In this document: piece after piece, positions 3,765-56,804 of the stretch
Position numbering within the stretch: the first letter of the stretch is position 1
Layout: every line of letters begins with the position of its first letter
Assembly (NCBI RefSeq): GCF_026213295.1
Contig: NC_079414.1
Location: 6,067,847-6,131,846, forward strand
From: Gadus chalcogrammus
Lineage: Eukaryota > Chordata > Actinopteri > Gadiformes > Gadidae
Direction of reading: 5' to 3'
Length of the DNA: 64,000 bases
Made by a program: the position numbers and the translations under genes
Notes under the pieces: generated by a model
What the model was told of the DNA's origin: nothing
Seen by the model: the letters and a program-made list of their open reading frames with translations, nothing else
Database searches by the model: none

Positions 3765-4660
3765 CTGTTGTTGTTGGTGGTGGAGAAGGGTTAGCAGAGG
3801 AAGCGACAAGTTGGCGAAAAAGGCAGGGGGTAGTGGGGAGAAAAGAAAAAAGTACAGTTTTCAACAACAATGGCTGGTGCAGTTCCCGTGGTCACGATAT
3901 GAGGGACAAGCCATGGTGTGTGTGTACTGCAGGACATGTGGCCCGTCCGTTGCAGGCAGGAGGAAACATTTTGTAAATTGATCTACACAATTCAAAGTTC
4001 AGTCATTAAAATTACACAACAAAAGCCATCACTAAAGAGGAACTCCCGTTCACAAAAAAAAAAATATGGTGCTACCTAATTTGTTTTGGTGCTACTAAAT
4101 GACAAGCTAGGTGGCACCAGTGATACCTGTGAAAAAGTTAGTCTGGAGCCCTGGACGCGCATGTTAAAACTAGGGCTATTAAAGTTAACACGATAATGCA
4201 TTAACGACCAAGAGACACAGCATTCACACAAGAGGAAAAAACAGCACAGATGTCGCTGTCTCCCCTTGCGTGATGCGAATACAGTGTTTTACGCCAATGC
4301 TTCAGCAAAGCATCTTTCACTCCCAGTCAGCCCCTCCCCCCTCCACTGTAAGCGCGCAAACACATGCACACTGGTGTATGGTGGACCCTGCCCTAATAAC
4401 AATGCTATACACATACACTGTAGGCTATATTTATAATTGAATAACTTGATCGGAGCATCCCTAAAAGTAAATGTTCATACCTACAGAATAAGTCATCACT
4501 TGTAAAAAATTGGGTTGATACTTTTCAACCTATGGCTTATTAAACATAGTAGAAACACAAATCCTCATCCTCCAATTTTTCAGTTTCTAAGCTATGCAGC
4601 TGCAAGGAGGCATTCAAGAAGGGAATTCATGAAAAACGTGGTCCTCATAATTACACTTAC

Positions 4661-4729
4661 AGTGGCGTCTTTTGATGTTGCGGGAGTTGAACTAACCGCT
4701 GCCATCATATCAACCCCATCACAGACGTC
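4661..4729 (-). CDS. 69-bp repeated exon, copy 1
   Basis: A CATTCACAG acceptor precedes 4729 and an ACT/GTAAGTG donor follows 4661. The 23 codons are open in phase 0 (DVCDGVDMM…SKDAT). Because the length is a multiple of 3, any number of copies keeps the frame. The upstream SET exon can also end in phase 0, so in-frame joining is possible. Function unknown. The downstream intron is truncated compared with other copies. Confidence 0.6.
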
Positions 4730-5213
4730 CTGTGAATGAGTCAATGACAGAAACAGAGTTGACATTTGAACATGAACCAATTCATTTTCATTTCACAAAC
4801 ATCGTGTCACGACACCAGCCATGTGTATGGCAGAAATGTTAGTTAATAGTCAGCAGAAAGAAGGAAGACAGGAGTAATGAACCCAAACTATTTGATATTC
4901 TATGACTTTTTCAGGTTTCCTATAACCGTAGTGGTTTCCTATGACCATGGGAATCCTTAACATAACACATAACCAACTTGTGAAACGTATTGTGTGAAGA
5001 AATGCAGAATTGAATTCATGAAAAACTGGGTCCTCATAATTCAGGTCTGAGAAGTGCCCATCCGACACACAAATCTCAGTTTGAATGTTTAACAGGTTTG
5101 CTTCTGTCCTTACAACACACTGTCCCTATAATCCTGTCAGGACAGTGTGTGTGTGTGTGTGTGGACTCTTGAGCACCATCATAACATCAAACTAAACAGT
5201 ATTATGCCTGGAT

Positions 5214-6741
5214 TAGGGATGCACCGATCCAACTTTTTCAGTTCCGATGCCGATACCGATGCTGGGGCCTTGCGTATCGTTCGATACCGATATCGATCCG
5301 ATATCAGTCAGCACGTTTACATCATCATAATAGTAATAGTAATAGTACAATAGTAATAATACATAATAATAGTCATAATCGGGTAACTAAACAAATAAGA
5401 TCTCAAAAGGATTTGTAAAATGCATGTAAACACCTTTATCCAATCTACTTCGCACAAAAATCGGCACGTGAACGGACAAGCTAAATCGAATAATAAATAA
5501 ATAATAAAAACGAGAAACGGCATTTTATTAAAAGGTGGCGAAGAAGATGAAGGAAGCCGGTGAATGTAGCCCCCATTTATAAGAAGCGTATCCCTGGCCG
5601 CGGGAGCGCGCATGGCATGCATTCATTAAAGGTGGAAGCACACAGACGCTTCGATTTCACCCAATGCTGAATTAAAAGTACATGTTTTCCTAAACGTGGG
5701 TCATCAATGAGGTTGTTAAGTAGTAACTTAGGGCACATCTGTCAAAATAAACGTTTATTTCTTCCGACGTCTTTATGATCTTTATTCATTCATTGCGCCA
5801 CGGCCGAACTGACGTTATTGATATTATGAATCTAAGACCGCGTCGGGTTCTCCGACTCTCGGGTATCCTACATCCACAACAAGTAAAGACTCGTAGTGTG
5901 GTTTATCTTGACCATGGGGGAGAATGAATTGGGGAATGCCGTACACGGACGGGCGGCGGAGGGGCTGCTACGGTGGTAGAAAGATGTTTTCAGCAGACAG
6001 CTGTCAACTCACTTCGGGTCGGCGATTTATTTAAAAAGCTGGCGCAGAAGATGGAGGAAGCCGATGTCGTGGCAATGTAGTTACCCCCTATAATAAGTGT
6101 ATAATCATCAACATGCATTCAGTACACACTACGCTTCGATTTCACCCAATGCTGAATTAAAAGTACATGTTTTTCTAAATGTTGCTCATCAACGAGGTTG
6201 TAAAGTAGTAACTACGATCTTTATTCCTTCATTGCGCCGCGGCCGAACTGACGGGGGTATTCTCTGATATTATGAAACGCGACATGGAGGAGAAAGCAAT
6301 GTTTTCAGTAGACAGCTGTCAGTTCACTTCGGGTCCATATCATTTCTCCGACGCTCCATTGTGCCGACCTCTCGATCGTATGCCGACTTCTCCGCCAGCA
6401 GAGCCAGCTCCTCGGGCTGGACTCCGCATACGACCGAGGCAACGCTCGCTTTACACGCATTGCAAACAGCCTTGGAGCTAGTTGGTGTGGTGAGGCTGAA
6501 ATATCTCCAAATCACAGACCCCTTCCTGCAACCCATGCTGTCTGTCGCAGCAACTCCACTCAATGCTCGCGCATTGCGGCATGCATGACGTAGCCCGTGT
6601 CGCGTAATATGTTTTAAAATATTACTTAAAAAGGCACGGATCGGTCTTACGGATCGGTTTGCTTTTACAGATACCCAATCCAGCTAAAATGTTGATATCG
6701 GGGCCGATATCCGATCCTAATATCGGATCGGTGCATCCCTA
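5214..6741. mobile_element. hAT element copy A in the tandem array
   Basis: The ends tagggatgcaccgatcc and ggatcggtgcatccct are inverted. The 8-bp duplication gcctggat flanks the element at 5206-5213 and 6742-6749. A BED-finger remnant lies on the minus strand at 6324-6563. Parts of the interior (about 5644-5780 and 6127-6250) are duplicated. It is non-autonomous: no catalytic domain is visible. Confidence 0.92.
6324..6563 (-). pseudogene. hAT transposase N-terminal BED-finger remnant (copy A)
   Basis: The minus-strand frame reads SVIWRYFSLTT followed by AVCNACKASV, the usual W-x-F…C-x2-C start of a BED zinc finger at the N-terminus of hAT transposases. The His pair and the catalytic RNaseH-like domain are missing. 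A near-identical copy lies at 8633-8872. Confidence 0.6.
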
Positions 6742-6783
6742 GCCTGGATGTAAAATCATATTACAGGAATACTGTCAACTTAC

Positions 6784-6852
6784 AGTGTCGTCTTTGGATG
6801 TTGCGGGAGTTGAACTAACCGCTGCCATCATATCAACCCCATCACAGATGTC
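6784..6852 (-). CDS. 69-bp repeated exon, copy 2
   Basis: Same acceptor and a GTAAGTTG donor. The reading frame is open (DICDGVDMM…SKDDT), differing from copy 1 at a few codons. Conservation of both splice sites and frame after duplication suggests the exon is used. Confidence 0.6.
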
Positions 6853-7518
6853 CTGTGAATGAGTCAATGACAGAAACAGAGTTGACATTTGAACATGAAC
6901 CAATTCATTTTCATTTCACAAACATTGTGTCACAACACCAGCAATGTGTATGGCAGAAATGTTAGTTACTAGTCAGCAGAAAGAAGGAAGGCAGGAGTAA
7001 TGAGCCCAAACTATTTGATATTCTATGACTTTTTCAGGTTTCCTATAACCGTAGTGGTTTCCTATGACCATGGGAATCCTTAACATAACACATAACCAAC
7101 TTGTGAAACCTATTGTGTGAAGAAATGCAGAATTGAATTCATGAAAAACGGGGTCCTCATAATTCAGGTCTGAGAAGTGCCCATCCGACACAAATCTCAG
7201 TTTGAATGTTTAACAGGTTTGCTTCTGTCCTTACAACACACTGTCCCTATAATCCTGTCAGGACAGTGTGTGTGTGTGTGGACTCTTGAGCACCATCATA
7301 ACTTCAAACTTACCAGTATTATGAAAAACTGGGTCCTCATAATTCAGGTCTGAGAAGTGCCCATCCGACACACAAATCTCAGTTTGAATGTTTAACAGGT
7401 TTGCTTCTGTCCTTACAACACACTGTGTCCCTATAATCCTGTCAGGACAGTGTGTGTGTGTGTGTGTGGACTCTTGAGCACCATCATAACATCAAACTAA
7501 ACAGTATTATGCCTGGAT

Positions 7519-9050
7519 TAGGGATGCACCGATCCAACTTTTTCAGTTCCGATGCCGATACCGATGCTGGGGCCTTGCGTATCGGTCGATACCGATATCG
7601 ATCCGATATCAGTCAGCACGTTTACATCATCATAATAGTAATAGTAATAGTACAATAGTAATAATACATAATAATAGTCATAATCGGGTAACTAAACAAA
7701 TAAGATCTCAAAATGATTTGTAAAATGCATGTAAACACCTTTATCCAATCTACTTCGCACAAAAATCGGCACGTGAACGGACAAGCTAAATCGAATAATA
7801 AATAAATAATAAAAACGAGAAACGGCGATTTATTAAAAGGTGGCGAAGAAGATGGAGGAAGCCGGTTAATGTAGCCCCCATTTATAAGAAGCGTATCCCT
7901 GGCCGCGGGAGCACGCATGGCATGCATTCATTAAAGGTGGAAGCACACAGACGCTACGCTTCGACTTCACCCAATGCTGAATTAAAGTACATGTTTTCCT
8001 AAACGTGGGTCATCAATGAGGTTGTTAAGTAGTAACTTAGGGCACATCTGTCAAAATAAACGTTTATTTCTTCCGACGTCTTTATGATCTTTATTCATTC
8101 ATTGCGCCGCGGCCGAACTGACGTTATTGATATTATGAATCTAAGACCGCGTCGGGTTCTCCGACTCTCGGGTATCCTACATCCACAACAAGTAAAGACT
8201 CGTAGTGTGGTTTATCTTGACCATGGGGGAGAATGAATTGGGGAATGCCGTATACGGACGGGCGGCGGAGGGGCTGCTCTGGTGGGAGAAAGATGTTTTC
8301 AGCAGACAGCTGTCAACTCACTTCGGGTCGGCGATTTATTTAAAAAGCTGGCGCAGAAGATGGAGGAAGCCGATGTCGTGGCAATGTAGTTACCCCCTAT
8401 AATAAGTGTATAATCATCAACATGCATTCAGTACAAACTACGCTTCGATTTCACCCAATGCTGAATTAAAAGTACATGTTTTTCTAAATGTTGCTCATCA
8501 ACGAGGTTGTAAAGTAGTAACTACGATCTTTATTCCTTCATTGCGCCGCGGCCGAACTGACGGGGGTATTCTCTGATATTATGAAACGCGACATGGAGGA
8601 GAAAGCAATGTTTTCAGTAGACAGCTGTCAGTTCACTTCGGGTCCATATCATTTCTCCGACGCTCTATTGTGCCGACCTCTCGGTCGTATGCCGACTTCT
8701 CCGCCAGCAGAGCCAGCTCCTCGGGCTGGACTCCGCATACGACCGAGGCAACGCTCGCTTTACACGCATTGCAAGCAGCCTTGGAGCTAGTTGGTGTGGT
8801 GAGGCTGAAATATCTCCAAATCACAGACCCCTTCCTGCGACCCATGCTGTCTGTCGCAGCAACTCCACTCAATGCTCGCGCGTTGCGGCATGCATGACGT
8901 AGCCCGTGTTGCGTAATATGTTTTAAAATATTACTTAAAAAGGCACGGATCGGTCTTACGGATCGGTTTGCTTTTACAGATACCCAATCCAGCTAAAATG
9001 TTGATATCGGGGCCGATATCCGATCCTAATATCGGATCGGTGCATCCCTA
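7519..9050. mobile_element. hAT element copy B in the tandem array
   Basis: Nearly identical to the 5214-6741 element, at the homologous position, with the same duplication gcctggat at 7511-7518 and 9051-9058. Shared site and target duplication show that the host unit was duplicated after insertion, rather than two independent insertions. Confidence 0.92.
8633..8872 (-). pseudogene. hAT transposase N-terminal BED-finger remnant (copy B)
   Basis: Same remnant as in the first array unit (SVIWRYFSLTT, ACNACKASV) with a few substitutions. It is a by-product of the tandem duplication. Confidence 0.6.
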
Positions 9051-9092
9051 GCCTGGATGTAAAATCATATTACAGGAATACTGTCAACTTAC

Positions 9093-9161
9093 AGTGTCGT
9101 CTTTGGATGTTGCGGGAGTTGAACTAACCGATGCCATCATATCAACCCCATCACAGATGTC
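9093..9161 (-). CDS. 69-bp repeated exon, copy 3
   Basis: Open 23-codon exon (DICDGVDMMASVSS…) with intact CATTCACAG acceptor and GTAAGTTG donor. It belongs to the unit that lacks the hAT insertion. Confidence 0.6.
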
Positions 9162-9662
9162 CTGTGAATGAGTCAATGACAGAAACAGAGTTGACATTTG
9201 AACATGAACCAATTTTCATTTCACAAACATTGTGTCACGACACCAGCCATGTGTATGGCAGAAATGTTAGTTAATAGTCAGCAGAAAGAAGGAAGACAGG
9301 AGTAATGAGCCCAAACTATTTGATATTCTATGACTTTTTCAGGTTTCCTATAACCGTAGTGGTTTCCTATGACCATGGGAATCCTTAACATAACGTGAAA
9401 CCTATTGTGTGAAGAAATGCAGAATTGAATTCATGAAAAACGGGGTCCTCATAATTCAGGTCTGAGAAGTGCCCATCCGACACACAAATCTCAGTTTGAA
9501 TGTTTAACAGGTTTGCTTCTGTCCTTACAACACACTGTGTCCCTATAATCCTGTCAGGACAGTGTGTGTGTGTGTGTGGACTCTTGAGCACCATCATAAC
9601 TTCAAACTTACCAGTATTATGCCTGGATGTAAAATCATATTACAGGAATACTGTCAACTTAC

Positions 9663-9731
9663 AGTGTCGTCTTTGGATGTTGCGGGAGTTGAACTAACCG
9701 TTGCCATCATATCAACCCCATCACAGACGTC
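9663..9731 (-). CDS. 69-bp repeated exon, copy 4
   Basis: Open 23-codon exon (DVCDGVDMMATVSS…) with intact splice signals. It is the copy nearest the SET exons and would be the first spliced onto them if the genes are one transcript. Confidence 0.6.
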
Positions 9732-9890
9732 CTGTGAATGAGTCAATGACAGAAACAGAGTTGACATTTGAACATGAACCAATTCATTTTCATTTCACAA
9801 ACATCGTGTCACGACACCAGCCATGTGTATGGCAGAAATGTTAGTTAATAGTCAGCAGAAAGAAGGAAGACCGGAGTAATGAGCCTGTCA

Positions 9891-20639: not shown

Positions 20640-20747
20640 CTGAATAAACAGCAACAAATGTTGTGAACCAGCATGACAAACCTATGACACATTTAAACCA
20701 TCACAAATTAAAATGATAAAAATAGTGTGTGCAAGGTGAGGTTTTAC

Positions 20748-22719
20748 CAGTTGGATCAATGCTGATCTCGTCCAATGTCATGCCTTTAAATTGTGATAGC
20801 TCGCCTCTCTCACAGGCCATAAGCAACTTTGCAACTTTGGCAACTTGTAATGTCCCTTCAGGGAGCCGATAATATTGTCGATGGACCCTGATGTTGTGAC
20901 CCATAAAACCTGCGAGGCAGTCCTCCTCATTGTCTTTCAAGTTCAGAACTTGTGACATTGTTGCCATTTGTTTCCTTAATCTTGTCGATGTCAATGTTTG
21001 AGGGTCCTTCACCCCGCATTCATGTGCAAAGGCACGGATGGCATCAGATCCTCTGACGTGACTTTCTGCCTCAGGTCTACCAAACAAATACACATTCTCA
21101 GGTGGCACAGCACATCGTCCTCGATAAGTCACCAGCATCTGTATGGAGGACACCATGTCTGGGCTGAGTAAGACGGGGACCTTTTTGTCCCGCTTACCTT
21201 TGATTTCCACACGCTCAAAGTATTTGCAGAGCTTCTTTTCCACGTCAGTCAAGGCAAGGTCAAGATCTGGATTACTGGCAAAGGTGTTTCTCAACAGGAA
21301 GTCAGTCAGGAACATCTTTGAAACTTCTCCCTCTCTCCTACGATTGAAGACGATTACTTCACAAAGCGTTAGTTTAGCAAGACTTAACCAGTTCCTCTTA
21401 TTTGGTGCAGTTTCAAGATTGGATCGATACTTGGGCCTTTCTGTGTCAATATGGTTGTGCAGTCTCACAACATCTTCACAGTAGGGGATAAGAAGAGGTT
21501 TATTCCATTTCGACTCTCTGAGGTTCCTCAGTGCATGCGAAGACACCCACTCATCCCATTTCTTCTCTTTCAATGTCCTGAACGTCACCACATTTTCAAG
21601 GGCCTTCTTGTTCTCTGACATCCTTGCTTCAAACTCTGCAATATCTGATATTTTAGTTAGACTATGGCCTAGTTTGAGCGCCAAGGATGGAATCTTGAAA
21701 CTGCTGGTATCTTCACTCCATCCACAGACCACCTTCACAGCTTTCACGACACGGCAGAAGTTTGCTGGCAGAAAGAAGTCATGTATTGTTTTCAGCTTGC
21801 CAAGTGTCTTTGCTAGGAGAACTAATCTTCCCATCTCCCGCATTTTTTGTCTGATGTATTGGTGTTGGCTTTTGTCTGTGCCTTTTTTGTTATAGAAGTG
21901 TTCTCCTAACTTCAGAATATATTTTTCTTGCCGAATCATGTCCGTTATGTTGTCTTGATTCATGCCATTTACTAGGCCCCAGACTTTGTCATTTATCTAT
22001 TTTGGGACAGGCTGTCCAGCAGCACAAAGTGACTGCACTCTAGTTCTGCCTGGCTTTATGCTTTTCTTTGCCAGTTTGTATTTTCTCATGTGCCGCCACA
22101 TCACCTTCCTTTTGAGTAATGCCTCACAGTATGTGCAGTGCAAATAGTCTTTTACATTCACTGGTCCAATGCTTTGCTGAGAGGGAACCATCACCCCTTT
22201 ACCCTGCTCCAGGACCTCGAAGTTGTGGCGACGATTGCCTTTATTTTGAATTAGAGTTGTCTGCAGCTTTCTCTCCGCTGATCCTTTTGGATAACTGAAC
22301 GCTTGTGCTACCGCCTGCACGTCGCTGTGTTTATTATCCAAATGCCGTGCAAGTTTGGCATATGGTTTAAAACAGTACAAACAGTAGTGCCTCTTATTGT
22401 ATACTCTACCACCATTGGTTTTCTTTTTCAGCCTCAAGACATCTATGTCACTGGAGGATTTTGACAACTCACAATCTGCCATGGATTGGGAAGAGGAAGA
22501 TGTGCCCTGTCTGCATTTAACAGGCTTAGCACGACCTTTCTTCAAGCGTAGAACATCAGAGTTATTTAATGAACTGTAGTTTCTTGGAGACTGGAGCAGT
22601 TTGAGTTCTTCCTCCGATACGTCTGATTCTGGTGTAGAACTAGGCACATACTCATCCTCACTTATTTCACTGCTTGTCATTGATTTATAGTCAGAGTTCC
22701 CAAGCATTTCCTTTGTAAG
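20748..22719 (-). pseudogene. Tyrosine-recombinase-like (Crypton-like) exon with one in-frame stop
   Basis: One long exon runs from a TTTTCTAG acceptor (start 22719) to a CTG/GTAAAAC donor (20748). It encodes an acidic leader, a finger ([16 protein letters not shown]…H), a second finger ([18 protein letters not shown]), then a core with box I FNRRREGEVSKMF, box II STRLRKQMATMSQ, FMGHNIRVHRQYYRLP with the presumed catalytic tyrosine. Seen: the frame is open for about 650 codons except one TAG at 21997-21999, where the sequence on both sides continues the family (…PVPK, stop, INDKVWGLVNGMN). A CAG to TAG change would explain it. Either a recent pseudogene, a polymorphism or an assembly error. 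It is fully in phase with the five 3' exons. Confidence 0.8.
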
Positions 22720-33956: not shown

Positions 33957-36900
33957 ATAGCAACACATTCTCACTCCGAGCGCGTCGATTTTTGACGAAC
34001 GGTCAGTGACTTTGGCTTCAGCGTCTGACGCAAAAGGGTACCCTTTTGCTTCTTTTAATATATGAAGCTATTCATCCCATTGGCTAACGGAAGACCCGTT
34101 GGCTGCACATTAACGGCGATTTTACAGTGAAATCTGTGACATTACTCAACACAACTACACCAACGTGTCCTTGTTAATTACACAACATGTATTGTTAAGG
34201 CTATGGACATCAGTTGTCCTGTTTTGTGCTTTGATTGAGAGAAACAATAATTTTTTTGATCAGTGTTGGGTAGCTGACGTTGTTGCTATGGAGACCACGT
34301 CCGGCCGCTATGTTTGACAACTGACAGAGCAACCCTATCTCGTCGAAATTAGGTTCCCAGAGAACTATTCGGCATTCTCAATTACGTTTGTCTGAAAAAC
34401 GTATTTTGTCCGTGATTACGTTTTATTGAACATATCGCAAATATGAATTCGTTCTCAGGCTATTTTTTGCCATTTATTTACCGTGTTACTATGGCAGAAT
34501 AAAGGATAAATTCATGCATTATCATTCAACTTGAACATGTGTTTTTACAGTACAGCGTGGCGGAGGGATGACATATGTTGGCCAACCCGGAAGTGAGCGT
34601 CGCCCTGGGTTTCCTTGACAACAAGCCAACGGGTTTTTCCATTGGATTTTGGATTGTTGCAGAAAATTTTGCATTTTTGAAGCACCTTCTCAAAAACTGA
34701 AAATAAATAAATAAATAAATATAAATAACCGTGCTCCAAAGAACGAAATGTAAACCAATGCATCCTGAATGGGAGTGTTTCTCCGATTTTTCCTGGACGC
34801 TATTTCCCCGACGTCACTTGTCTGTCATGGTTGCTATGTTGGTGGCTATCGACCGCCCCCTCTAATCCTTACATGGCTCTAAAAACCACGCGGCAAAGGA
34901 GCTGCCGTCAATTGTGTTGTTTTTGTCGTAAACTAGGGTCCGAGGGTTAAAAAATAGACAGATATTCCAAGGTATCCTAAAAGGCAGTTTGGATGTTTTT
35001 ATTTTCTGCAGTTTAGACTTCTTCTGTAACCTATTTTTGAAAGCAAAACACCAAGTTCATTGATTTAACGAGGCAGGGTTATTTGAAACAATTTATTAAA
35101 TAAATATTTGTGAGAGGTCATTCCTTCTCCTGTGTTTGCTTCCTATTTATGTCTAGTGTACGCCCCTGGCTACTTTCCACAAGCACCCCCCCACCCCATA
35201 TGGATTTGGAGAATTGTTGCCACGTCCCAGTGGTGGTGGTATCATATATGAAAGAAGGCATTTAATTATACTTCAATGATCAATTAGGAGGCCAAAGCCC
35301 TAAAGGAAGTGATGCAATAGGTGACTGAGTCGAAAACAGTTACAAGTAAGCTGTACCTTGGGGTCTCTTATATGTCAAAGGGGGTCTCAAAGGACGCATA
35401 CGCATCAACCTGTGGCTTCAGCCCTACAGGAAATGACTCAGCAAGTGCTCCACCTCGTTGCACCTCACCCAGCGGCTCGCTTGCAAGATTTTGGCCTGAA
35501 GTTCTTCCGAGACCTACACCTTAGCCATCCAACATGCATATCTGAGAATCAGGCCTCTCTTTAATAATGACAAAAAGTTATGAGAGAAATACACATGAAC
35601 TTTTTGTTATCTCATAAGCGGCGTCGTGCCGGCTCCTTTTGACCTTTTGACCCCAGACTTCAAAAACGTAGCCACAGGCCAGCTGTGTCTACACACCTTA
35701 AGCCACAAGTGTACACCTCCATCCTACAAAAAATGGGGACTAGAAACTAACCTCTGTCTTATGTACATTTACTGTACTGTTGGAGGTCACGCCCCTTTTC
35801 CGGCCTTTACGAGATAACTAGGGATGCAAAAATGTTAACACACATTTCCCGGGGTCCCGAGAACGACATATCCGAGATTTGGAGTTCTAGTCCTTAGAGA
35901 AAAAAAGTTTTCCCAAATGAACTGTCATTTGGACAAAGCCCCTCAGAAGTGTTGCCTGCAAGCCCTGATGGTTCAGAATGTGGTGGAAAAACAGTTTTTG
36001 AGATAGGAAGGTCCTACCGCCCTATCTAATTTTAATACATTATTCTAGGGCCTAACTGGGACCCCCCCACCGAAATTTGGCCCGGTCGGACCCCGAGGGC
36101 AGGAATTCTAGGGCCTAACTGGGGCCCCCGCAACGAAACTTGGCCCGGCCCCCTTCCTGCCCTCGGGGTCCGACCGGGCCAAGTTTCGGTGCGGAGGTCC
36201 CAGTTAGGCCCTAGAATAAGGTATTAAAATTTCAGGGCGGTAGGACCTTCCTATCTCAAAAACTTTTTCCACCACATTCTGAACCATTAGGTCTTGCAGG
36301 CTACACTTCTGAGGGGCTTTGTCCAAATGACACTCCATTTGGGAAAACTTTTTTTCTCTAAGGGCTAGAACTCCAAATCTCGGATATGTCGTTCACGGGG
36401 CCCCGGGAAATGTGTGTAAACATTTTAGCATCCCTAGCTATCTCGAAAAGGTCGGCAAAGGGGCGTGACCTCCAACAGTACAGTAAATGTACATAAGACA
36501 GAGGTTAGTTTCTAGTCCCCATTTTTTGTGGGATGGAGGTGTACATTTGTGGCTAAAGGTGTGTAGACACAGCTGGCCTGTGGCCACGTTTTTGAAGTCG
36601 GGGGTCAAAAGGTCAAAAGGAGCCGGCACCACGCCGCTTATGAGATAACAAAAAGTTAATGTGTGTTTCTCTCATAACTTTTTGTCATTATTAAAGAGAG
36701 GCCTGATTCTCAGATATGCATGTTGGATGGCTAGGGTGTAGGTCTGGGAAGAACTTCAGGCCAAAATCTTGCAAGCGAGCCGCTGGGTGAGTTGCAACGA
36801 GATGGAGCACTTGCTGAGTCATTTCCTGTAGTGCTGGAGCCACAGGTTGAAGCGTATGCGTCCTTTGAGACCCTCTTTGATGTATAAGAGACCCTATACA

Positions 36901-37388
36901 TATACAGCTTACTTAAATGTTGTCAACTCAGTCACCTATTGTATCACTTCCTTTAAGGCTTCGGCCTCCTAATTGATCATTGTAGGCTATAATTGAATGC
37001 CCTCTTTCCTATATATATGATACCTCCACCACTGGGACGTGGCAACAATTCTCCAAATCCATATGGGGAGGGGGGGGATGCTTGTGGACAGTAGGGGTTT
37101 ACCCTAGACATAAATAGGAAGTAAAATCAGGAGAAGGAATGACCTGTCACAAATATTTATTCAATAAATTGTTTCAAATAACCCTCCCTCGTTAAATCAA
37201 TGAGCTTGGTGTTTTGCTTTCAAAAATTAGTTATAGAAAAAGTCTAAACTGCAGAAAATAAACACATCCAAGCTGCCTTTTAAGGATACCTTGGAATATC
37301 TGTCTATTTTTCAACCATCGGACCCTAGTTTACGACAAAAACAACCCAATTGACGGCAGCTCCTTTGCCGCGTGAGCCACGAGTATTA

Positions 37389-48680: not shown

Positions 48681-48964
48681 AAGCGCCAAGCGCAAGCAGC
48701 TTTGTGGGCGGTTCTATGGCGATGTTAAATAAATTACTCTTGCGCCTGGCGCAAATCTAAAAAGGATAGGTCTGAAGTAGCCTAATTACCCGTAGGTGTG
48801 GTTTGGGCGTAAAGTGCAATAAACCAATGAGAGTGCCATCTCCCATCCCCTTTAAGAGCCATGAGCGCATTTGAATCTGCCGAGTTGATATTTTGACAGT
48901 GCGTTTGCAGTCTCCGATGAGACAGATGCATGACCACATTAATTTCAAACTTCAAATGGCTCAG
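48681..48964. repeat. Left arm of a diverged inverted repeat enclosing the HECT transposon
   Basis: Pairs in inverted orientation with 56507-56804: gcgccaagcgcaagcag, aatctaaaaa, gaagtagcctaattacccg, and atttcaaacttcaaatggct blocks all match, with about 10-15% divergence by eye. The arms end just outside the 49.1-56.2 kb transposon, which therefore sits in the loop. Confidence 0.8.
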
Positions 48965-49099
48965 TTTATGGCCAAATAATATGGTCTAATTCACACATGG
49001 AATAGCGTTTTCTTACACAACTTCGGAAACACTGAGTCCTCGAATAAATTTTGGCAAAGAAAAATAGATATGCGGTAACTGTGGTTCTATTTAATACGG

Positions 49100-49490
49100 T
49101 GGCCGAGAAGGGCAAAACACAAAAACAAACTCGGGAACATTTTTACATTTTGTAAAACACTTTAACAAGTTTCGAAACACTTTTACAAGTTTTTTACGAA
49201 AATTACATTTTAGAAAAAACTTTTGCAAGTTCCGGAACAAAATAACATCTTAGAAAACATTTTTGCAAGTTCAAAAAAACATTTTTGCAAGTTCATTTTT
49301 CTTACGGAAAGGGAATGTCCAAGCTCCGATGTTGACCCGGAAGTGATAACGAAAGCGCTCGAATTCAAGTTCATTCATAGCGATTCAAGATGGACAGCGG
49401 TAGAGCAGCGTTTTGTCCGTTCTGTGGCCAACACATGAGACGATTAACACGGTTTTGTTTTTCGTGTGGCAGGTCTTTAGAGTGTTTAAA
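49100..49490 (+). repeat. Left terminal inverted repeat, including zinc-ribbon exon
   Basis: It pairs with 55800-56190. The outer 240 bp are near identical after inversion. The inner part diverges but encodes the same zinc ribbon. It likely contains the promoter and 5' leader of the integrase gene (inference from position before the ATG at 49390). Confidence 0.85.
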
Positions 49491-50785
49491 TCGCGCTGAC
49501 CAGACGTAAGGACTAGATGTGCTGCAGCAGTGCACACTCTATTTTCATGAGGGACACTCGTACGCTGCGATCGTGGACATGATGTCGTGTTTACATGATG
49601 TACAGATCAGTTTGAGGTCTCTGAAAGGCAAACTTAATGACGCCGGGTGACGCAGAAGGAATTTCTCCTCTAGAGACGCAGTAATTAGGACAATACGTCT
49701 GGAACTTCGCGGACCTGGACAGCTGTTTGGCTACCGCACGATGTGGCCGGTACTCAAACCAAAGTACAAGTTGCAAGTGAGGAGGGATCTTGTAATGACT
49801 TTGCTCCGGGAGCTCAATCCTCAAGGGTGCGAGAGGAGAACACGCAGAAGGTTCGTAAGGAGAACCTACCACTCCATGGGACCCAACTATGTATGGCACG
49901 CGGATGGCTATGATAAACTCAAGCCATTCGGTTTGGCTCTTTCCGGGTGCATCGATGGGTTTTCGCGCAAAGTACTGTGGCTTGTTTGTGGACCAACGAA
50001 TAATGACCCAACAGTGATCACTCACTATTACTTATCATGTGTGCGAAACCTTGGTGTCATACCCATGAGACTGAGGACTGATTGCGGCACGGAGAACGGG
50101 ACCATGGCCGCAATTCAGTGTACCCTACGCCACCACCACAATGACTACTACTCTGGAGCGTCCAGCCTCATGTATTGGTCATCCACAAGTAACCAGAGGA
50201 TTGAGTCCTGGTGGTCCATATTCAGAAAGGGAAGGTACGTGGCCCTCGTTAAGTCATTCGATTATGGGTAACCTTCATTCATTCAAATATACGTTATAAT
50301 TTTAAGAAACATGAACTGAAGTTTAGCATTATTCTGTGTCAGTAGCTCATTTAGCTTGAATGTGTTCAGTGTCTCACACTTGAACAATTAGCATGTGAAC
50401 ACCTCCCCCCGCTAGGCCCCTTTGTCCTCTGTCGTCACCTCCCTCCCCCCCAATACCCTATAGTGTTGTCACCACTGACTGCATTCTCCGGTCCGTTCTT
50501 CAACTTTGGTGTACTCATTTAGATTCCATCAGATGGTATTTGTCTCCCTTTGATCTAAACATTTAATAAATGTAATATTCTGTTTAACACAGGTTTGGCT
50601 CCAGAGACTGTGGATTTAAAATTGAAGAAACTGAACTGGATGCCTTTCCTGAGGCTCAGCTGACAAGAGCTCCATGTGGGGACCCAAACATGCAGGAGTA
50701 CTTGGACTTAGCCATGGAGCAAAATAATTTACAGAAGCCAGATCACTGGCAGTCTTCAACTGAACTGTATCTTAGACTAAAATAA
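49390..50785 (+). pseudogene. IS3/retroviral-type DDE integrase (transposase), broken
   Basis: Exon 1 is 49390-50234 and exon 2 is 50593-50785 (AAG/GTACGT donor, AACACAG acceptor, phase 2 on both sides). N-terminus: zinc ribbon (FCPFCGQHM…FCFSCGRSL). Then an HTH-like region (FHEGHSYAAIVDMM) and YRTMWPVLKPK. The core has HADGYDKLKPFG (first Asp), IDGFSRKVLWLV, RTDCGTENG (second Asp) and NQRIESWW (Glu), so the DDE triad is present. The last exon ends QSSTELYLRLK. Breaks seen: in-frame TAA at 49507-49509 and TGA at 49648-49650. The region normally following the Glu helix in this family (the 'CLRFCFM…WNxHRIR' type stretch, from memory) is missing. The element is therefore probably non-autonomous now. 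Confidence 0.82.
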
Positions 50786-50981
50786 ATTGCTCAGCTCTGA
50801 ATTGATTGCAGGTTTATTGTAAATGTACACAAAGTGTCTGAATTTGACACCCAGTTTCAATTTTCCAAAGTGGCAATTAAACAAATAAGAATGCTAATCG
50901 TTTAAGATCCATTATTTTTCATGTTAACTGAAAAAAAAAAACATTAAACTAGTCTCAGGGATCTAGGGTTAGGTTGTGAAG

Positions 50982-51217
50982 TCAAAAACAGCCAAATCCT
51001 GGACTATTTTGCATTCCAAAGTCCATTTGTGTCTTAAACACTCCGTAAGAATCTAGGAGTGGTAGTTTTAAGACATTTCCACAAGTGTTTGCCATTGGAA
51101 ATGGCGAGTTATCTAGGAACTCTAATTGTGGAAGTGGGTCTAAGCCAGCTGGGGGAAGGGATCTCAGTCCAGTTGAAAACATCAACACGTCCTCCACAGA
51201 CACAGCAGCCTCTCCTT
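50982..51217 (-). CDS. HECT domain C-lobe exon with active-site cysteine
   Basis: Acceptor TTCTTTGCAG, stop TGA. Reads [20 protein letters not shown], then [20 protein letters not shown] and finally NSPGFGCF. The 'FSTG…PP', 'TCxNxLxLP' and terminal 'GFG' landmarks of HECT C-lobes are all present. Confidence 0.87.
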
Positions 51218-54200
51218 CTGCAAAGAAATAAATGTTCAGACACACCATGGTATGTGGTTTTTCAAGTAGTTAAAAGCCTTACAAACCTTCACAATCCAGA
51301 AGATAGTCTGCCCAGTAGGCCAATGTTTGGTTTTCTTTCAGTCTTCTGTTACTTCCTGAAGGACTGAGATCAGGTTTGAAGACCCTCTCAAGGTCTAAGC
51401 CAGTGAGTTTCTTGTCGACGTGGCACAGGACAGGGGTCAGCAAAGCAGGGTGTTGCTTCAGTGCACCAAGAAACTCAAGGGCTGACAGACCATCTTTGAA
51501 TCTGCAAAGTGAACACCAACACTGTTTCAATGCTGTGTAGTGCCTACTGCATTTAAATTATCTAAAGAAAACTTAAGGGTTCTCTCCCCGACAATTACAA
51601 TCCACCTAAACAAATGTACATCTGGGGAAAATAGTTGTGTGTAAACCAATTACTTTGATTTGCACATGTCAAGGTGTTACAAACTGCTAAATTTCACATG
51701 GAGGAATGCCACAGAGGACAGGGTATAACAGATACACATGCCATGAGACACTTCAAACAAACATTTCATACATAAAACTGATCTGATCTTACCTGTCAAT
51801 TACAGAGGAGTTGCGGTCAATGACGTGCCAATGGAGGTAGTCTACCACAATCTCTTTTTTTTGTTCGACAGCAGCCACATGTCTAAGACAGCCAGCTGTC
51901 TGCAACATTGTGCTGTGTCTTAAAATACCGTCTCGCAGATCATCCAATGACGCAGCATTCTCAATCTGAAAGACATAAAGAGGCATAACCACCACAGTAG
52001 ATAACTGGATATACTATCTTTTCCCATTTTTATTCAGTGACAGAAACAGCATGCTGTAACCCTTACCTTACCCTATCAAAAACTACATTACATATACTAC
52101 AATACATTCTGTATGCTTATCCTGTAACGGAAGTAAACATGGTCTTAAAACAGTGCAAGAACAATGTTAAACTCTGTCCTTCCACATAGTAGACTTATGC
52201 TATTCTCACCTCTCGTAAAGCTTTCCCTATCTCATCATCAGTTATTAAATTAACTGATGGTTTGAATGAGGGCTGGCCCGCAAGATACTGAACAAGACCC
52301 TCTGACAGGAAATGGGGTCCTGGACCTCCATGTACTATTGAGACCGCGACCATCTTTCCTGCCAGGAAGTACTCATCCTCCCTAACGGCTGTGAATGAAT
52401 TCATATTGCAAAATGAAAACATGAAATGCATTATATTCTTTAAGACAGAGGAAAAATGTAAATGTTTGATGATCATTAACCAACCATTAGCACAGCACAC
52501 TAATAACCCTATGCATACCATTCGCATTGAAGACCAAGAACTTATGACCTTCTGGACCATCAAAAATAGGCCGGTCTTTGAGGAGTTTCATGAGAAGGGT
52601 CAAAAACTCCCTTCTAGGTCCACCGGTGTCAATGCCCTCCTCAAAAACTCCAGCATCATCTGTGAACCTGACCAGCATGTCACAGGCTTCTGAGTACGTT
52701 GAACGCTTGAATCCTCTGACAGCTCCGTCCCAAATATTGGACCTCGAAATGTTGAACCTGCTGACCTTCTTGTGGTCGATCAGAAGCGACAGGTTTGCTA
52801 TAATCAAGGGAAGTGTAGTGCCTATCTCCTCCCTGTAATGACCAAAAGTGATTTAATTAATCAATATCAAATACAGTGCACACTTTTACAAAAATTATTT
52901 AAATACCAGCAATATTGTACAATGGAAAAACTGGAATGCCACACTCAAAAAGCTAATTTTACACTGCTGTGTCTTGGAAATTCTCCACACTGACTACTGC
53001 AACCAGCTCCTCATCTTCTTCAACACCTGGTGAATGCAGGTCTGTGTATTTTCTGTTGAGAAATTACAATAACATGTTTAAAATCTTACAAACACAACAT
53101 TTCTTCCCCATGAATTAAATTGAAAGTATGCGAGTCACTATAATTTTTTTGTTTTACCTGTAGCAAGTCTTGTCTGACTGAGTTGGATCCATGTCCTCAG
53201 CATCTGATATGACCACAGTCGGAACCATTCCCGAAGGTCCTGGTTCATCTCTAAAACATGATAAAAAAAAAAAAGTACTAAAATTATTACTGGACTGCAA
53301 AAACCTGCTACGTGTGGGGAGGACGGCTGAAAAGATCATTGGAGTCGCTCTCCCCTGCGTCTCAGATTTCTACACCACAAGCTGCATCCGCAAGGCAACC
53401 AGCATCGTGGAAGACCCCACCCACCCCTCACAAACATTTTTTCTCAACTCTTTGATCTGGCAGAAGGTACCGTAACATACGGTCTGTCACTACCAGACTA
53501 CAACAGCTTCTTCCCCCAGGACATACGACTCAGGGACTGATCTGATCACCTCTGTTGTATAGTGTCCTGCTTCACTGTTTTTGTATATTGTTGATACACT
53601 ATTGCACCTCATGTAAGTAATAATACAGTCACTTAAGTATTTGCACTGAAAACTTCTTGGGAAACGTTATTTCACTGTACTGTGTATGTAATGACAAACC
53701 CTCTTGAATCTTGAATCACATGAATGAATATTGTTCTTCAGGCCTACAATAGTCATCTAAGAATGTGAATGAATACAATACAGGCAAGATTCTGATTGGT
53801 TGATAACCACAAGAAAATTTAAAAAATTTGACTGACAAAGACTAGATGCCAAAATGTACCAACCTTTCATCTCTAGGTTTAGGTCTGGGAGTACTTTGGT
53901 TTTGGGGTTCAAAAACCTGAGGGGACAGGCACACATTTATCAACAATTTGTAATAACTTCCATAACTGTTCCCTTACCACATAAATTGTGTGTGCGTATG
54001 TATGTGTACGCTATATACAGTATAAATATCAATGGTGAAAGGTTGTCAGTATTGTCATAGATAAATCAATAAACACATTTGTATGTAATTAAGTAAAATA
54101 AATAATTATGATGTACCACTGTGTCAGCTCGATTAAATTCGACTGTGCTCCTTGATGGGATGTCAAATTCAGAATCCGACTCTGAAGTATCATCCGCTAC

Positions 54201-55882
54201 TGTAAAAACACAAGACAGATCATGTAGATACTGTAGATTATCAGTAGAGTATCCAAAATATGTGAAAAAATATTGAATCATGATACATGAGATCCACTAA
54301 CCTCCTTTAAAATCAGTTTCAAGGCAAATGAAGAGGGTGATCCTGCCATATGGCCTTCCAAGCTCCTTTTTGTACTCGGCCAATTTGAATGGCCTTTCGG
54401 ATCCAGGCAGATGGACCACCTCTGACCGGTCCGGATACAAAAGGATGTACTTTCCGTCTTGCACGTCCTTATTACATTTTGTCATCTTCTGGACAGCTTG
54501 TTTGAGCAATTCTGGTGCTGCTATCTCTGGGTCAACAAATACTGGAAGCATTTTCTCTATCAGAGGTTTTACCTCCGTTCCAATCCACACCATCAATCCA
54601 ATGTTTATCTAATAAAAATGACAAAGATAAGATACATTTCATGTATTAAACATATGGAAAACAAAAGACTACCGGTACATAATACACAGAATGTAGTGTC
54701 CCTCCATGGTCAAATTTGTGCCACCAGTTTCATAATGAGCCGAACATGTCCATAAGCTTGAAGCTCTCAAAATACTTTTGCCCAATTGCTTCGGCAAAGC
54801 ATCTCGCCCTGCATGAGAGCTTCTGTTATTATGTCTAGAGCGCTATATGCCCTAAAATCTACGTAAAGATACCCACTTCAACATATATTACTTTTTTCTT
54901 TTAACTTAAGTCTGTACAATAAATCTAGCGTGACACAGATCGATTTACGAGTCATCTCGAGTCAGACAGTCAAGGTTTCCCCAGGTTTGATCATCCCAAA
55001 TGAAGGACTTTTTAGACCACTTCAATGAAAATTAAGACCTACATCGCAACCATTATGTGGCCGTAAAACATCAGTGTATATAATTATCATGTTGCAGAGA
55101 GTGGAAAAGAAGAGGGAGGATGAGAATGAGAGGGGTAGGAAGAGTGAGAGGTAGGGGTAGAGCTGGTAGAGGTGTTCTGCTGTGCATATGTTGCACTGAC
55201 TTGTTTGGTGAAAAATACAAAATTAATGTGAAGAATCTTAAGAATTTGTTAACACTTCATTTCATACACTTATACACCACATCCCTTGTTTCAGTTGAAC
55301 CTAATTCCCACATTTACTCCTTGGAGTTTAACGTCAATCATTCCTTCATTCAAACAGTCAGTACAGTCATACAGTATCATAGGGGTGAACTAGGCAGCTA
55401 CCAAACTGCACACGATGGCAGACAATGCTAATATTTGAATGATGTAGGCCGAAAACTCCAAGGAATGAGACGCTCTGACGTAACGGAACCCCTCGTGTTG
55501 CATATCATTTTTACTTTTATCGTATTCCGCCCCATTTTCACCTTGCGTTGCAGTGCGGTTGACTATAAAAAAAAAAGCCCAGTAGGATATTTAAGGAACA
55601 TGACATAAGATTTTTTTAAGACTTAAGACCCCGCGGCTTAGCTAAAACAGTCAGTAACATACCTGGACCGGTAGCGATATTCACTTTCATTCACATACTA
55701 GCAAGCGTTATGCTGCACTTACTTTGCTTTGCATTATCCGGCTGTGCAGAGGTTGCCGGTTTGTTTGGTCCTTCCGTCAGAAACTCGAGGGACCGGCCAC
55801 ACGAGAAACAAAACCGTGATAGTTGGCTGATGTGCTTACCACAAAACGGACAAAACGCGACTCTGTCGCCGTCGCCGTCCAT
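50982..55882 (-). CDS. HECT-type E3 ubiquitin ligase-like protein encoded by the transposon (G2E3-like)
   Basis: Exons on minus: 55882-55723, 54608-54302, 54199-54117, 53916-53864, 53250-53158, 52832-52519, 52388-52210, 51965-51793, 51501-51287, 51217-50982. All borders are GT/AG, and phases agree from 54608 to the TGA at 50982. Domains: N-terminal zinc ribbon; a ubiquitin-like or small beta domain ([19 protein letters not shown]…[11 protein letters not shown]); acidic linkers; then a HECT domain with [13 protein letters not shown] (N-lobe) and [11 protein letters not shown], where the Cys is the predicted thioester residue, ending PGFGCF. About 600 residues. Known: HECT ligases take ubiquitin from an E2 on the cysteine and pass it to substrates. 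The first exon ends in phase 1 while 54608 needs phase 0, so one small exon is missing from this model or the ligase starts at the ATG in exon 54608. No stop or frame shift is seen. Confidence 0.82.
52519..52832 (-). CDS. HECT domain N-lobe exon
   Basis: Acceptor CATTACAG, donor AATG/GTATGC. Reads [28 protein letters not shown] and [20 protein letters not shown], the hallmark start of HECT domains. Phase 2 in, phase 1 out. Confidence 0.85.
53274..53717 (+). mobile_element. LINE (Rex1/L2-type) 3' fragment inside a HECT-gene intron
   Basis: The plus strand encodes the C-terminal motif [20 protein letters not shown] followed by [19 protein letters not shown], then a stop region and a 3' tail ending cttgaatcttgaatc, opposite in strand to the ligase gene. 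It resembles the end of the LINE that starts at 62.3 kb. A 5'-truncated insertion. Confidence 0.75.
54620..55720. other. First intron of the HECT gene, unassigned
   Basis: A plus-strand Arg/Gly run ([16 protein letters not shown]) at 55130-55180 resembles a common fish transposase leader but has no following domain. A (T)n/(A)n stretch lies at about 55566-55577. I could not find the missing linking exon here. Confidence 0.3.
55723..55882 (-). CDS. Zinc-ribbon first exon of the HECT gene
   Basis: The ATG at 55882 is followed by two Cys-x2-Cys pairs ([20 protein letters not shown] then GRSLEFL), a zinc ribbon homologous to the N-terminus of the integrase at the opposite end. The donor AAA/GTAAGTG lies at 55723. 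About 25 residues are near identical between the two copies. Confidence 0.72.
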
Positions 55883-56190
55883 CTTCAATGGGTGAAAACT
55901 AGAATTTGCGCGCTTTCCTTGTCATTTCCGGCTCAACCTCTGAGCTTGGGCATTCCCTTTCCGTAAGAAAAATGAACTTGCAAAAATGTTTTTTTGAACT
56001 TGCACAAATGTTTTTTTGAACTTGCAAAAATGTTTTCTAAGATGTTATTTTGTTCCGGAACTTGCAAAAGTTTTTTCTAGAATGTAATTTTCGTAAAAAA
56101 CTTGTGAAAGTGTTTCGAAACTTGTTAAAGTGTTTTACAAAATGTAAAAATGTTCCCGAGTTTGTTTTTGTGTTTTGCCCTTCTCGGCCA
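55800..56190 (-). repeat. Right terminal inverted repeat, including zinc-ribbon exon
   Basis: Inverted counterpart of 49100-49490. It carries one extra acatttttgcaagttc-type unit, and ends at the ATG-proximal part of the ligase first exon. Presumably the ligase promoter. Confidence 0.85.
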
Positions 56191-56506
56191 CACATACACA
56201 CACGCGTGCCCGCATTCATTCATTCTTTTTAACACTCACTCGCGGTAAAACAATGTTATTTCTCATGATCAAATACTCATCAATCCTAAAAGTTAAAGGC
56301 TTGTACACAATGTCTGTGTCAAGAAAACATGTGTTTGCTGTACGGTGTTTGCAGAGGCATTGAATTAAAAGTAAAACGTATTACCGCTGCATCAGCTGTT
56401 CTTTCCCAAATAATTTACCAAAAATGTGTGGCTAGGTAGATGAGAGAAGCAAAGTGTATGCGTGAGGTGCACAAGCAACATTATGCATGCGCCCTTAAAA
56501 TAGCAT

Positions 56507-56804
56507 CTGAGCCATTTGAAGTTTGAAATTCATGTAATCATGCATCTGTCTCATCGCAGACTGCAAAGTCATTGTCAAAATATCCACTCGTCAGATTAAA
56601 ATGCGCTCATGGCTCTTAAAGGGGATGGGAGATGGCAATCTCATTGGTTTATTGCACGTTACACCTAAACCACACCTACGGGTAATTAGGCTACTTCAGA
56701 CCAACGCTTTTTAGATTTGCGCCGGGCGCAAGAGTCATTTATGCGCCGGTAAAATAGCAACATTGTCATAGAACCGCCCACAATGCTACTTGCGCTTGGC
56801 GCTT
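56507..56804. repeat. Right arm of the diverged inverted repeat enclosing the HECT transposon
   Basis: Inverted counterpart of 48681-48964. Weak similarity continues toward the transposon on both sides (aaattttggcaaagaa versus aaattatttgggaaagaa read inverted), suggesting the original arms were longer. Confidence 0.8.

Follow-up and report, generated by a model that had tools for sequence, protein, structure and literature searches.

IS3EU transposons have TA..TA ends and usually generate 6-bp target duplications (PMC10045372), and the available text of PMC12730594 describes TET-bearing fungal members in which an alpha-kinase gene lies opposite the transposase gene. A two-gene arrangement is also found in maize MuDR where, according to the available portions of PMC8224964, each gene is driven by a promoter in a terminal repeat and the second gene is required for integration. 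Here we describe a decayed IS3EU-type DNA transposon from Gadus chalcogrammus, located within a 64,000-nucleotide stretch of contig NC_079414.1 (assembly GCF_026213295.1, positions 6,067,847 to 6,131,846; hereafter the window), in which a DDE integrase gene converges on a gene for a HECT-class E3 ubiquitin ligase. We hold it very probable that the element is of the IS3EU type and that the ligase is one of its standing components. No HECT gene in an IS3EU or integrase-type transposon was found in the literature searched, a search that left Repbase, bioRxiv and most subscription journals outside. The words HECT and ubiquitin are absent from the main text of PMC10045372 and PMC12730594, and in the portions of text available, IS3EU and ubiquitin occurred together only in two papers, one about a fungal plant pathogen and the other about mastitis in buffalo.

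Two convergent genes between shared inverted ends

A first-pass annotation, made from the letters alone, had proposed a 7.1-kb unit with long inverted ends and two convergent spliced genes, and this architecture holds. The inverted ends at 49099-49295 and 55995-56191 are 98% complementary, with homology extending inward to about 49483 and 55783, and both genes could be mapped, each spliced and each beginning inside a terminal repeat. The boundaries first given, 49100 and 56190, need correction: alignment with other copies places the ends at 49095, where the left terminus reads TACGG, and at about 56196, where the right terminus has decayed to ..CACATA. The outer part of the repeat, which contains 20-22-bp tandem motifs, is identical between the two ends at 221 of 224 aligned bases (98.7%, gaps excluded), and one end has one extra copy of a 22-bp motif. 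Inward of this part, identity between the ends is 82% in the leader and 79% in the coding part, which on the left is the start of the integrase gene and on the right the start of the HECT gene. An outer inverted-repeat element (48681-48964 and 56507-56804, arms 87-92% complementary) encloses the whole transposon.

Using the left repeat as query, we searched the assembly from which the window comes (168 contigs, 630 Mb), a search that gives a lower bound on copy number. The seven matches resolved into three elements: the window copy and two others, at C15:28001423-28022192 and C2:15716930-15726317. Both of the others are enlarged by additional sequence and end in TACGG..CCGTA; between the same repeats they carry, convergently, a HECT gene with its exon 2 and an integrase gene with its internal exon. 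All three copies found with these ends therefore carry both genes, as expected if the two belong together. The C2 copy is flanked by a perfect 6-bp target site duplication (AGTATG/AGTATG), and the C15 copy by one matching at five of six positions (AGTTAC/AGTAAC). The flanks of the window copy (ATTTAA/CACACA) retain no duplication, which leaves a perfect one in a single copy of the three. That these genes instead represent a domesticated host ligase family that lost its transposon appears highly improbable: annotation does treat many HECT-family fish proteins as products of host genes, under the name G2/M phase-specific E3 ligase-like, but each of the three copies found in this genome has a contig of its own, is bounded by transposon ends and has decayed, and the window copy is broken.

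To place the element among other fishes, we examined the best 120 of 211 HECT matches (from 7,995 scored candidates) and the best 120 of 731 integrase matches (from 1,639 candidates), listings that favour relatives of the window integrase. Among the matches listed, the named relatives of both proteins are fishes, and some rows are nameless. A ferret name stands beside tilapia on P0074 (HECT) and P0187 (integrase); the ferret-labelled HECT row is most likely a contaminated record. Because relatives cover the whole length, and because the same genome has two further copies bounded by the same ends, chance is excluded.

Gene neighbourhood is visible for only a minority of the listed relatives, and there HECT and integrase genes bear consecutive identifiers in Archocentrus (LOC115776738/9), Notolabrus (LOC117828943/4), Crenichthys (CRENBAI_024063/4) and Dissostichus mawsoni (F7725_007646/7). 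Eight contigs of equal size are common to the HECT (110 entries) and integrase (115 entries) lists among these matches; three of them belong to the consecutive-identifier pairs, two are small (31,142 and 463,084 bp), and three are chromosome-sized and constitute weak evidence. Divergence of the HECT proteins is correlated with that of the integrases (r 0.87 over eight pairs). Adjacency and correlated divergence are what a standing component predicts, and together with the three copies, adjacency in other fishes supports the earlier proposal of a ligase that is part of the element, as opposed to DNA captured at random.

Among the matches listed, the window HECT protein is 98% identical to P0034 of sablefish (Perciformes), with 54% of the query covered, and in a tree of 28 rows the path between the two is 0.014, compared with 0.28 to the next row. 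The C15 copy is identical to P0034 at 403 of 408 positions. Of the 387 positions aligned between the C2 copy and P0121, the integrase of an Arctogadus (Gadiformes), 384 agree. Since sablefish and Arctogadus belong to different orders, at least one of these matches crosses orders, at an identity far above the vertical expectation. These comparisons make it likely that the element recently passed horizontally across fish orders, unless a record is contaminated. Viral contigs scanned with integrase P0122 and HECT P0001 contained no relative, and a viral carrier finds no support in these scans. A Foldseek comparison of the HECT model with viral proteins returned four matches at an E-value of at most 0.001, all from giant viruses.

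Structure of the ligase and integrase genes

Ten HECT exons, numbers 3 to 12, are open and in phase from 54608 to the stop at 50982, joined across nine GT..AG introns and encoding 580 amino acids that include the cysteine motif, in agreement with the first-pass annotation. Pfam identifies the HECT domain in the window protein (E-value 1.2e-11), and the domain is bilobal. The catalytic cysteine C654 and F683 (P0001 numbering) are invariant across 36 aligned relatives. A phenylalanine at position -4 has a functional role in HECT ligases, and it falls within a conserved tail in 35 of the 36, the tail of P0006 being unrelated; the window protein has both this residue and the catalytic cysteine. 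The description of the gene as complete did not hold up. Exon 2 (44 amino acids in P0034) has no match anywhere in the window, where it would fall between 54609 and 55722, and splicing exon 1 onto exon 3 shifts the frame into a stop. One may speculate that a downstream start within exon 3 could yield a ribbonless ligase from the window copy.

Pfam searches of the window protein and P0106 returned the HECT domain only, along with zinc-ribbon models in exon 1, and the precomputed domains of most long relatives among the matches listed are likewise HECT, at times with a zinc ribbon. Exon 3 possibly encodes a ubiquitin-like domain, as suggested by weak matches and by the order of elements in the structural model. 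The domain signals are a ULD_2 match at an E-value of 0.033 in one of three sequences, and polyubiquitin matches in which repeats inflate the E-values; taken singly, no stretch in the best rows passed. Within HECT intron 5, positions 53300-53720 resemble the 3' end of a long interspersed nuclear element, judged by eye from the translation.

The integrase coding sequence runs unspliced from the zinc ribbon through the DDE core to 50235. Its assignment to the retroviral/IS3 type, made on first inspection, is upheld by Pfam matches to rva_4 (E-value 8.6e-19) and rve (E-value 0.0017, below the cut-off). The relative P0122 matches the NCBIfam models for IS3 (E-value 5e-7) and IS481 (E-value 4e-5), both far below the curated cut-offs. 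The catalytic residues D173, D232 and E273 are kept in 30 of 30 aligned sequences. A search with the integrase profile against solved structures gave no convincing match (best E-value 0.81). In the window copy, an in-frame stop replaces a Glu codon, there is a second stop with the loss of one residue, and an internal exon of about 70 amino acids, which relatives and the C15 and C2 copies have, is absent. A further stop after LRLK is not damage, because all three copies have it.

Table 1 Positions in the window of the transposon, its terminal repeats and the exons of its two genes
Feature	Position	Strand	Basis or remark
Whole element, IS3EU-type DNA transposon, decayed copy	49095..56196 (right end approximate), 7,102 bp	.	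ends aligned with two other same-genome copies
Left terminal inverted repeat	49095..49488	+	from outside inward: conserved part bearing the 20-22-bp tandem motifs, leader, integrase zinc ribbon
Zinc ribbon CPFCG...CFSCG, integrase start, within repeat	49390..49488	+	translation and sub-threshold Pfam zinc-ribbon matches
Integrase exon 1: ribbon, N-terminal region, DDE core	49390..50235	+	tblastn with P0121 and P0122; Pfam rva_4
Last integrase exon	50592..50785	+	preceding exon (SQFWMELF..YYLPH) missing in window copy
HECT exon 12: 11-residue catalytic cysteine motif, C-terminal Phe at -4	50982..51217	-	
HECT exon 11	51287..51501	-	
HECT exon 10	51793..51965	-	
HECT exon 9	52210..52388	-	
HECT exon 8	52519..52832	-	
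HECT exon 7	52963..53052	-	
HECT exon 6	53158..53250	-	
HECT exon 5	53864..53916	-	
HECT exon 4	54117..54199	-	
HECT exon 3, possible ubiquitin-like domain	54302..54608	-	relatives match ubiquitin-like domains weakly
HECT exon 1: zinc ribbon and linker, phase 1 end	55723..55882	-	53 of 54 residues as in P0034
Right terminal inverted repeat	55778..56196	-	order as on left; innermost part is HECT zinc ribbon

Elsewhere in the window we noted a palindrome of about 2.5 kb (34887-37374, 91% self-complementary) and a tandem duplication (4655-9885) with a unit of about 2.3 kb, 97.6% identical, and partial further copies. Two long open frames on the minus strand (2-1856 and 20704-22719) look alike by eye, have no Pfam match above the cut-off and probably represent another multicopy element. 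A Pfam scan covering ten other open frames of the window turned up no host gene from which the species could be told.

The zinc ribbon encoded by the terminal repeats

Both proteins start with a CPFCG...CFSCG zinc ribbon encoded by the inner terminal repeat. The HECT gene does start inside the terminal repeat, as first described, and the same repeat also encodes the N-terminal ribbon of the integrase. In Archocentrus, residues 1-40 are identical between HECT P0003 and integrase P0122, and the annotation of P0125, which neighbours P0003, begins at a later Met, with agreement from that point on. The 28-residue ribbons of the two proteins are also identical to each other in medaka and in bichirs. 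Over six HECT/integrase pairs, ribbon identity is 0.90 within pairs compared with 0.63 between them, and among the 720 pairings none but the observed one reaches the observed mean.

Such likeness might be a by-product of repeat growth, the repeat having extended inward over promoter and gene start, so that the ligase would have gained no more than the promoter and start of the transposase and would act elsewhere in the cell. Homogenisation of repeats alone can keep ribbons alike, as in the 40 identical residues of Archocentrus, and MuDR repeats are known as promoters for two genes (PMC8224964, in the portions available). The ribbons of the window family, however, are no longer homogenised (79% identity compared with 98.7% in the outer repeat), yet they differ by 12 synonymous and 10 nonsynonymous changes over 33 codons, a ratio of nonsynonymous to synonymous rates (dN/dS) of 0.13 (Fisher p 1.3e-4 on the 28-codon core). 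We therefore regard a by-product as unlikely. Because the differences between HECT and integrase ribbons are common to all three copies, they date from the active lineage. Of the results presented, this comparison, which covers the ribbon only, argues most strongly that both genes, and so the HECT gene too, were translated and constrained in the moving element.

A predicted gene of Oryzias latipes, LOC101163634 (P0241 and isoforms), encodes 847-1202 amino acids with the ribbon first and HECT-family sequence, in some isoforms with PF15485. This group is possibly the transposon ligase fused to other sequence, or an annotation artefact.

Several observations weigh against a ligase that is a working part of the element and that shares its ribbon with the integrase. 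The six ribbon pairs were hand-picked, and two of them span close species (Takifugu, bichirs). Same-species pairs with unlike ribbons were omitted (for example Brachyhypopomus P0043/P0154, Metynnis P0036/P0130 and Triplophysa P0097/P0195); these are probably different element families. Among the matches listed, the best integrase ribbon lies in the same genus or family for only 6 of 60 ribbon-bearing HECT proteins, isoforms included. The predicted integrase structure is poor (predicted local distance difference test score 59.9) and too weak for use. Both genes are damaged in all three same-genome copies: beyond the window lesions, the integrase of the C15 copy is interrupted by a stop and a frame change and its HECT exon 1 by a gap of two bases, while in the C2 copy the integrase carries a deletion and HECT exons 3 and 5 show stop and frame changes. 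The copies are about 1% apart, with HECT exons (0.990-0.991 identity) no more conserved than introns (0.992). A dN/dS comparison of the HECT gene among copies, which the first-pass annotation had suggested as a check, gave near-neutral values for exons 3-12 (0.44, 0.59 and 0.81, with 15-18 changes per pair).

At these three copies the HECT gene thus evolves nearly neutrally and selection is not visible at the copy level; the copies are young relics, and the window copy is dead. Because they are young and dN/dS is near neutral, the open HECT frames are not evidence of selection here. A relic state of this kind would fit a HECT gene that is mere cargo, a host gene captured once between the ends and carried without use to the transposon, and the TET/JBP genes of rust-fungus IS3EU elements also move between transposons (PMC12730594, in the text available). 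We nevertheless consider cargo very improbable, since HECT-integrase adjacency also occurs in the distant Notolabrus, whose HECT protein is 45-62% identical to the others compared, since the catalytic cysteine column is invariant and the divergence of the two genes correlated, and since the ribbon is kept as protein in both.

Proposed function and comparison with known systems

That one ribbon is encoded at each end of the element suggests that ligase and transposase may work together. The ribbon is the sole shared part of the two proteins and the motif array adjoins it; hence the simplest reading is that the proteins would meet at the transposon ends. Most likely, the ribbon would bring both to one place, either the repeated 20-22-bp end motifs or the assembled transposase, and the ligase would then modify proteins at the ends. 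Whether the ligase is recruited through its ribbon is, on present sequence comparisons, an even call. Its likeliest substrate would be the transposase or the strand-transfer complex, which it would help to dismantle or limit in amount; we propose this substrate tentatively, as rivals carry similar weight.

The next candidates are proteins of the host that serve in silencing or repair and are located at the ends; the first-pass annotation, too, had put forward transposase stability and host repair or silencing factors as possible targets. A ribbon-recruited ligase could act there on silencing chromatin or DNA repair factors, opening or protecting the element, much as the TET/JBP enzymes of IS3EU and other transposons are proposed to counter silencing (PMC12730594, in the text available) and as the Helitron deubiquitinases exemplify transposon-borne ubiquitin proteases (PMC9741609, in the portions available). 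Host factors as the target seem to us rather unlikely. Returning to the transposase complex as substrate, we slightly favour the full proposal: an IS3EU element with integrase and HECT ligase as its standard gene set, recruitment by the ribbon and modification of the transposase complex. That the repeat doubles as coding sequence, giving one targeting domain to transposase and ligase alike, with the ligase dedicated to the transposition complex, is possible, if somewhat short of even. If true, it would be an intra-element eukaryotic counterpart of regulated transpososome disassembly or turnover.

With this element, the set of enzymes encoded by DNA transposons comes to include a HECT-class ubiquitin ligase, and it shows that inverted repeats can carry a protein domain common to two gene products. 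It is also a possible origin of many fish G2/M phase-specific E3 ligase-like proteins, whose genes adjoin an integrase gene where the neighbourhood is visible; studies of gene families should therefore test for such proteins and mask them. The system is directly testable, by removing or mutating the ligase and following excision and insertion, and it is a likely further example of an animal transposon with two genes that recently moved horizontally.

In RAG1-type proteins, a RING ubiquitin-ligase domain is tied to a transposase lineage. There it is a domain of the transposase itself, in contrast to the separate HECT gene of the fish element. G2E3 is a cellular HECT-type ligase with PHD fingers, after which annotation pipelines name the fish HECT relatives; Pfam found no PHD-type fingers in the window protein or P0106, and the window protein does not qualify as a G2E3 orthologue. 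In the available text of PMC5638112, G2E3 is one of the proteins that unclassified candidate repeats from an invasive Cottus matched by blastx, and this element family may explain that match.

Helitrons with OTU or tegument-like deubiquitinases (PMC9741609, in the portions available) resemble the fish element as transposons of fish and other animals that encode enzymes of the ubiquitin system, but these enzymes remove ubiquitin and lie inside the Helitron open reading frame of rolling-circle elements. MuDR, as described in the available portions of PMC8224964, also has two genes; its promoters lie in the terminal repeats, and in the fish element both convergent genes start within the repeats, which may hold their promoters. 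MuDR differs in its MULE transposase, in a second gene, mudrB, that encodes a novel protein of another kind, and in repeats that are described as promoters, not as coding sequence. The rust-fungus IS3EU elements share the presence of a gene for an accessory enzyme that runs opposite to the transposase gene, whereas theirs encode a kinase and a DNA demethylase, not a ubiquitin ligase, and a shared repeat exon is not described in the available text (PMC12730594). The fish element resembles IS3EU itself in its DDE transposase related to IS3/IS481, in its 6-bp duplication and in its ends, TACGG..CCGTA compared with TAYGG..CCRTA in fungi; it differs from IS3EU in carrying a HECT ligase and in having a terminal repeat that encodes a shared protein start.

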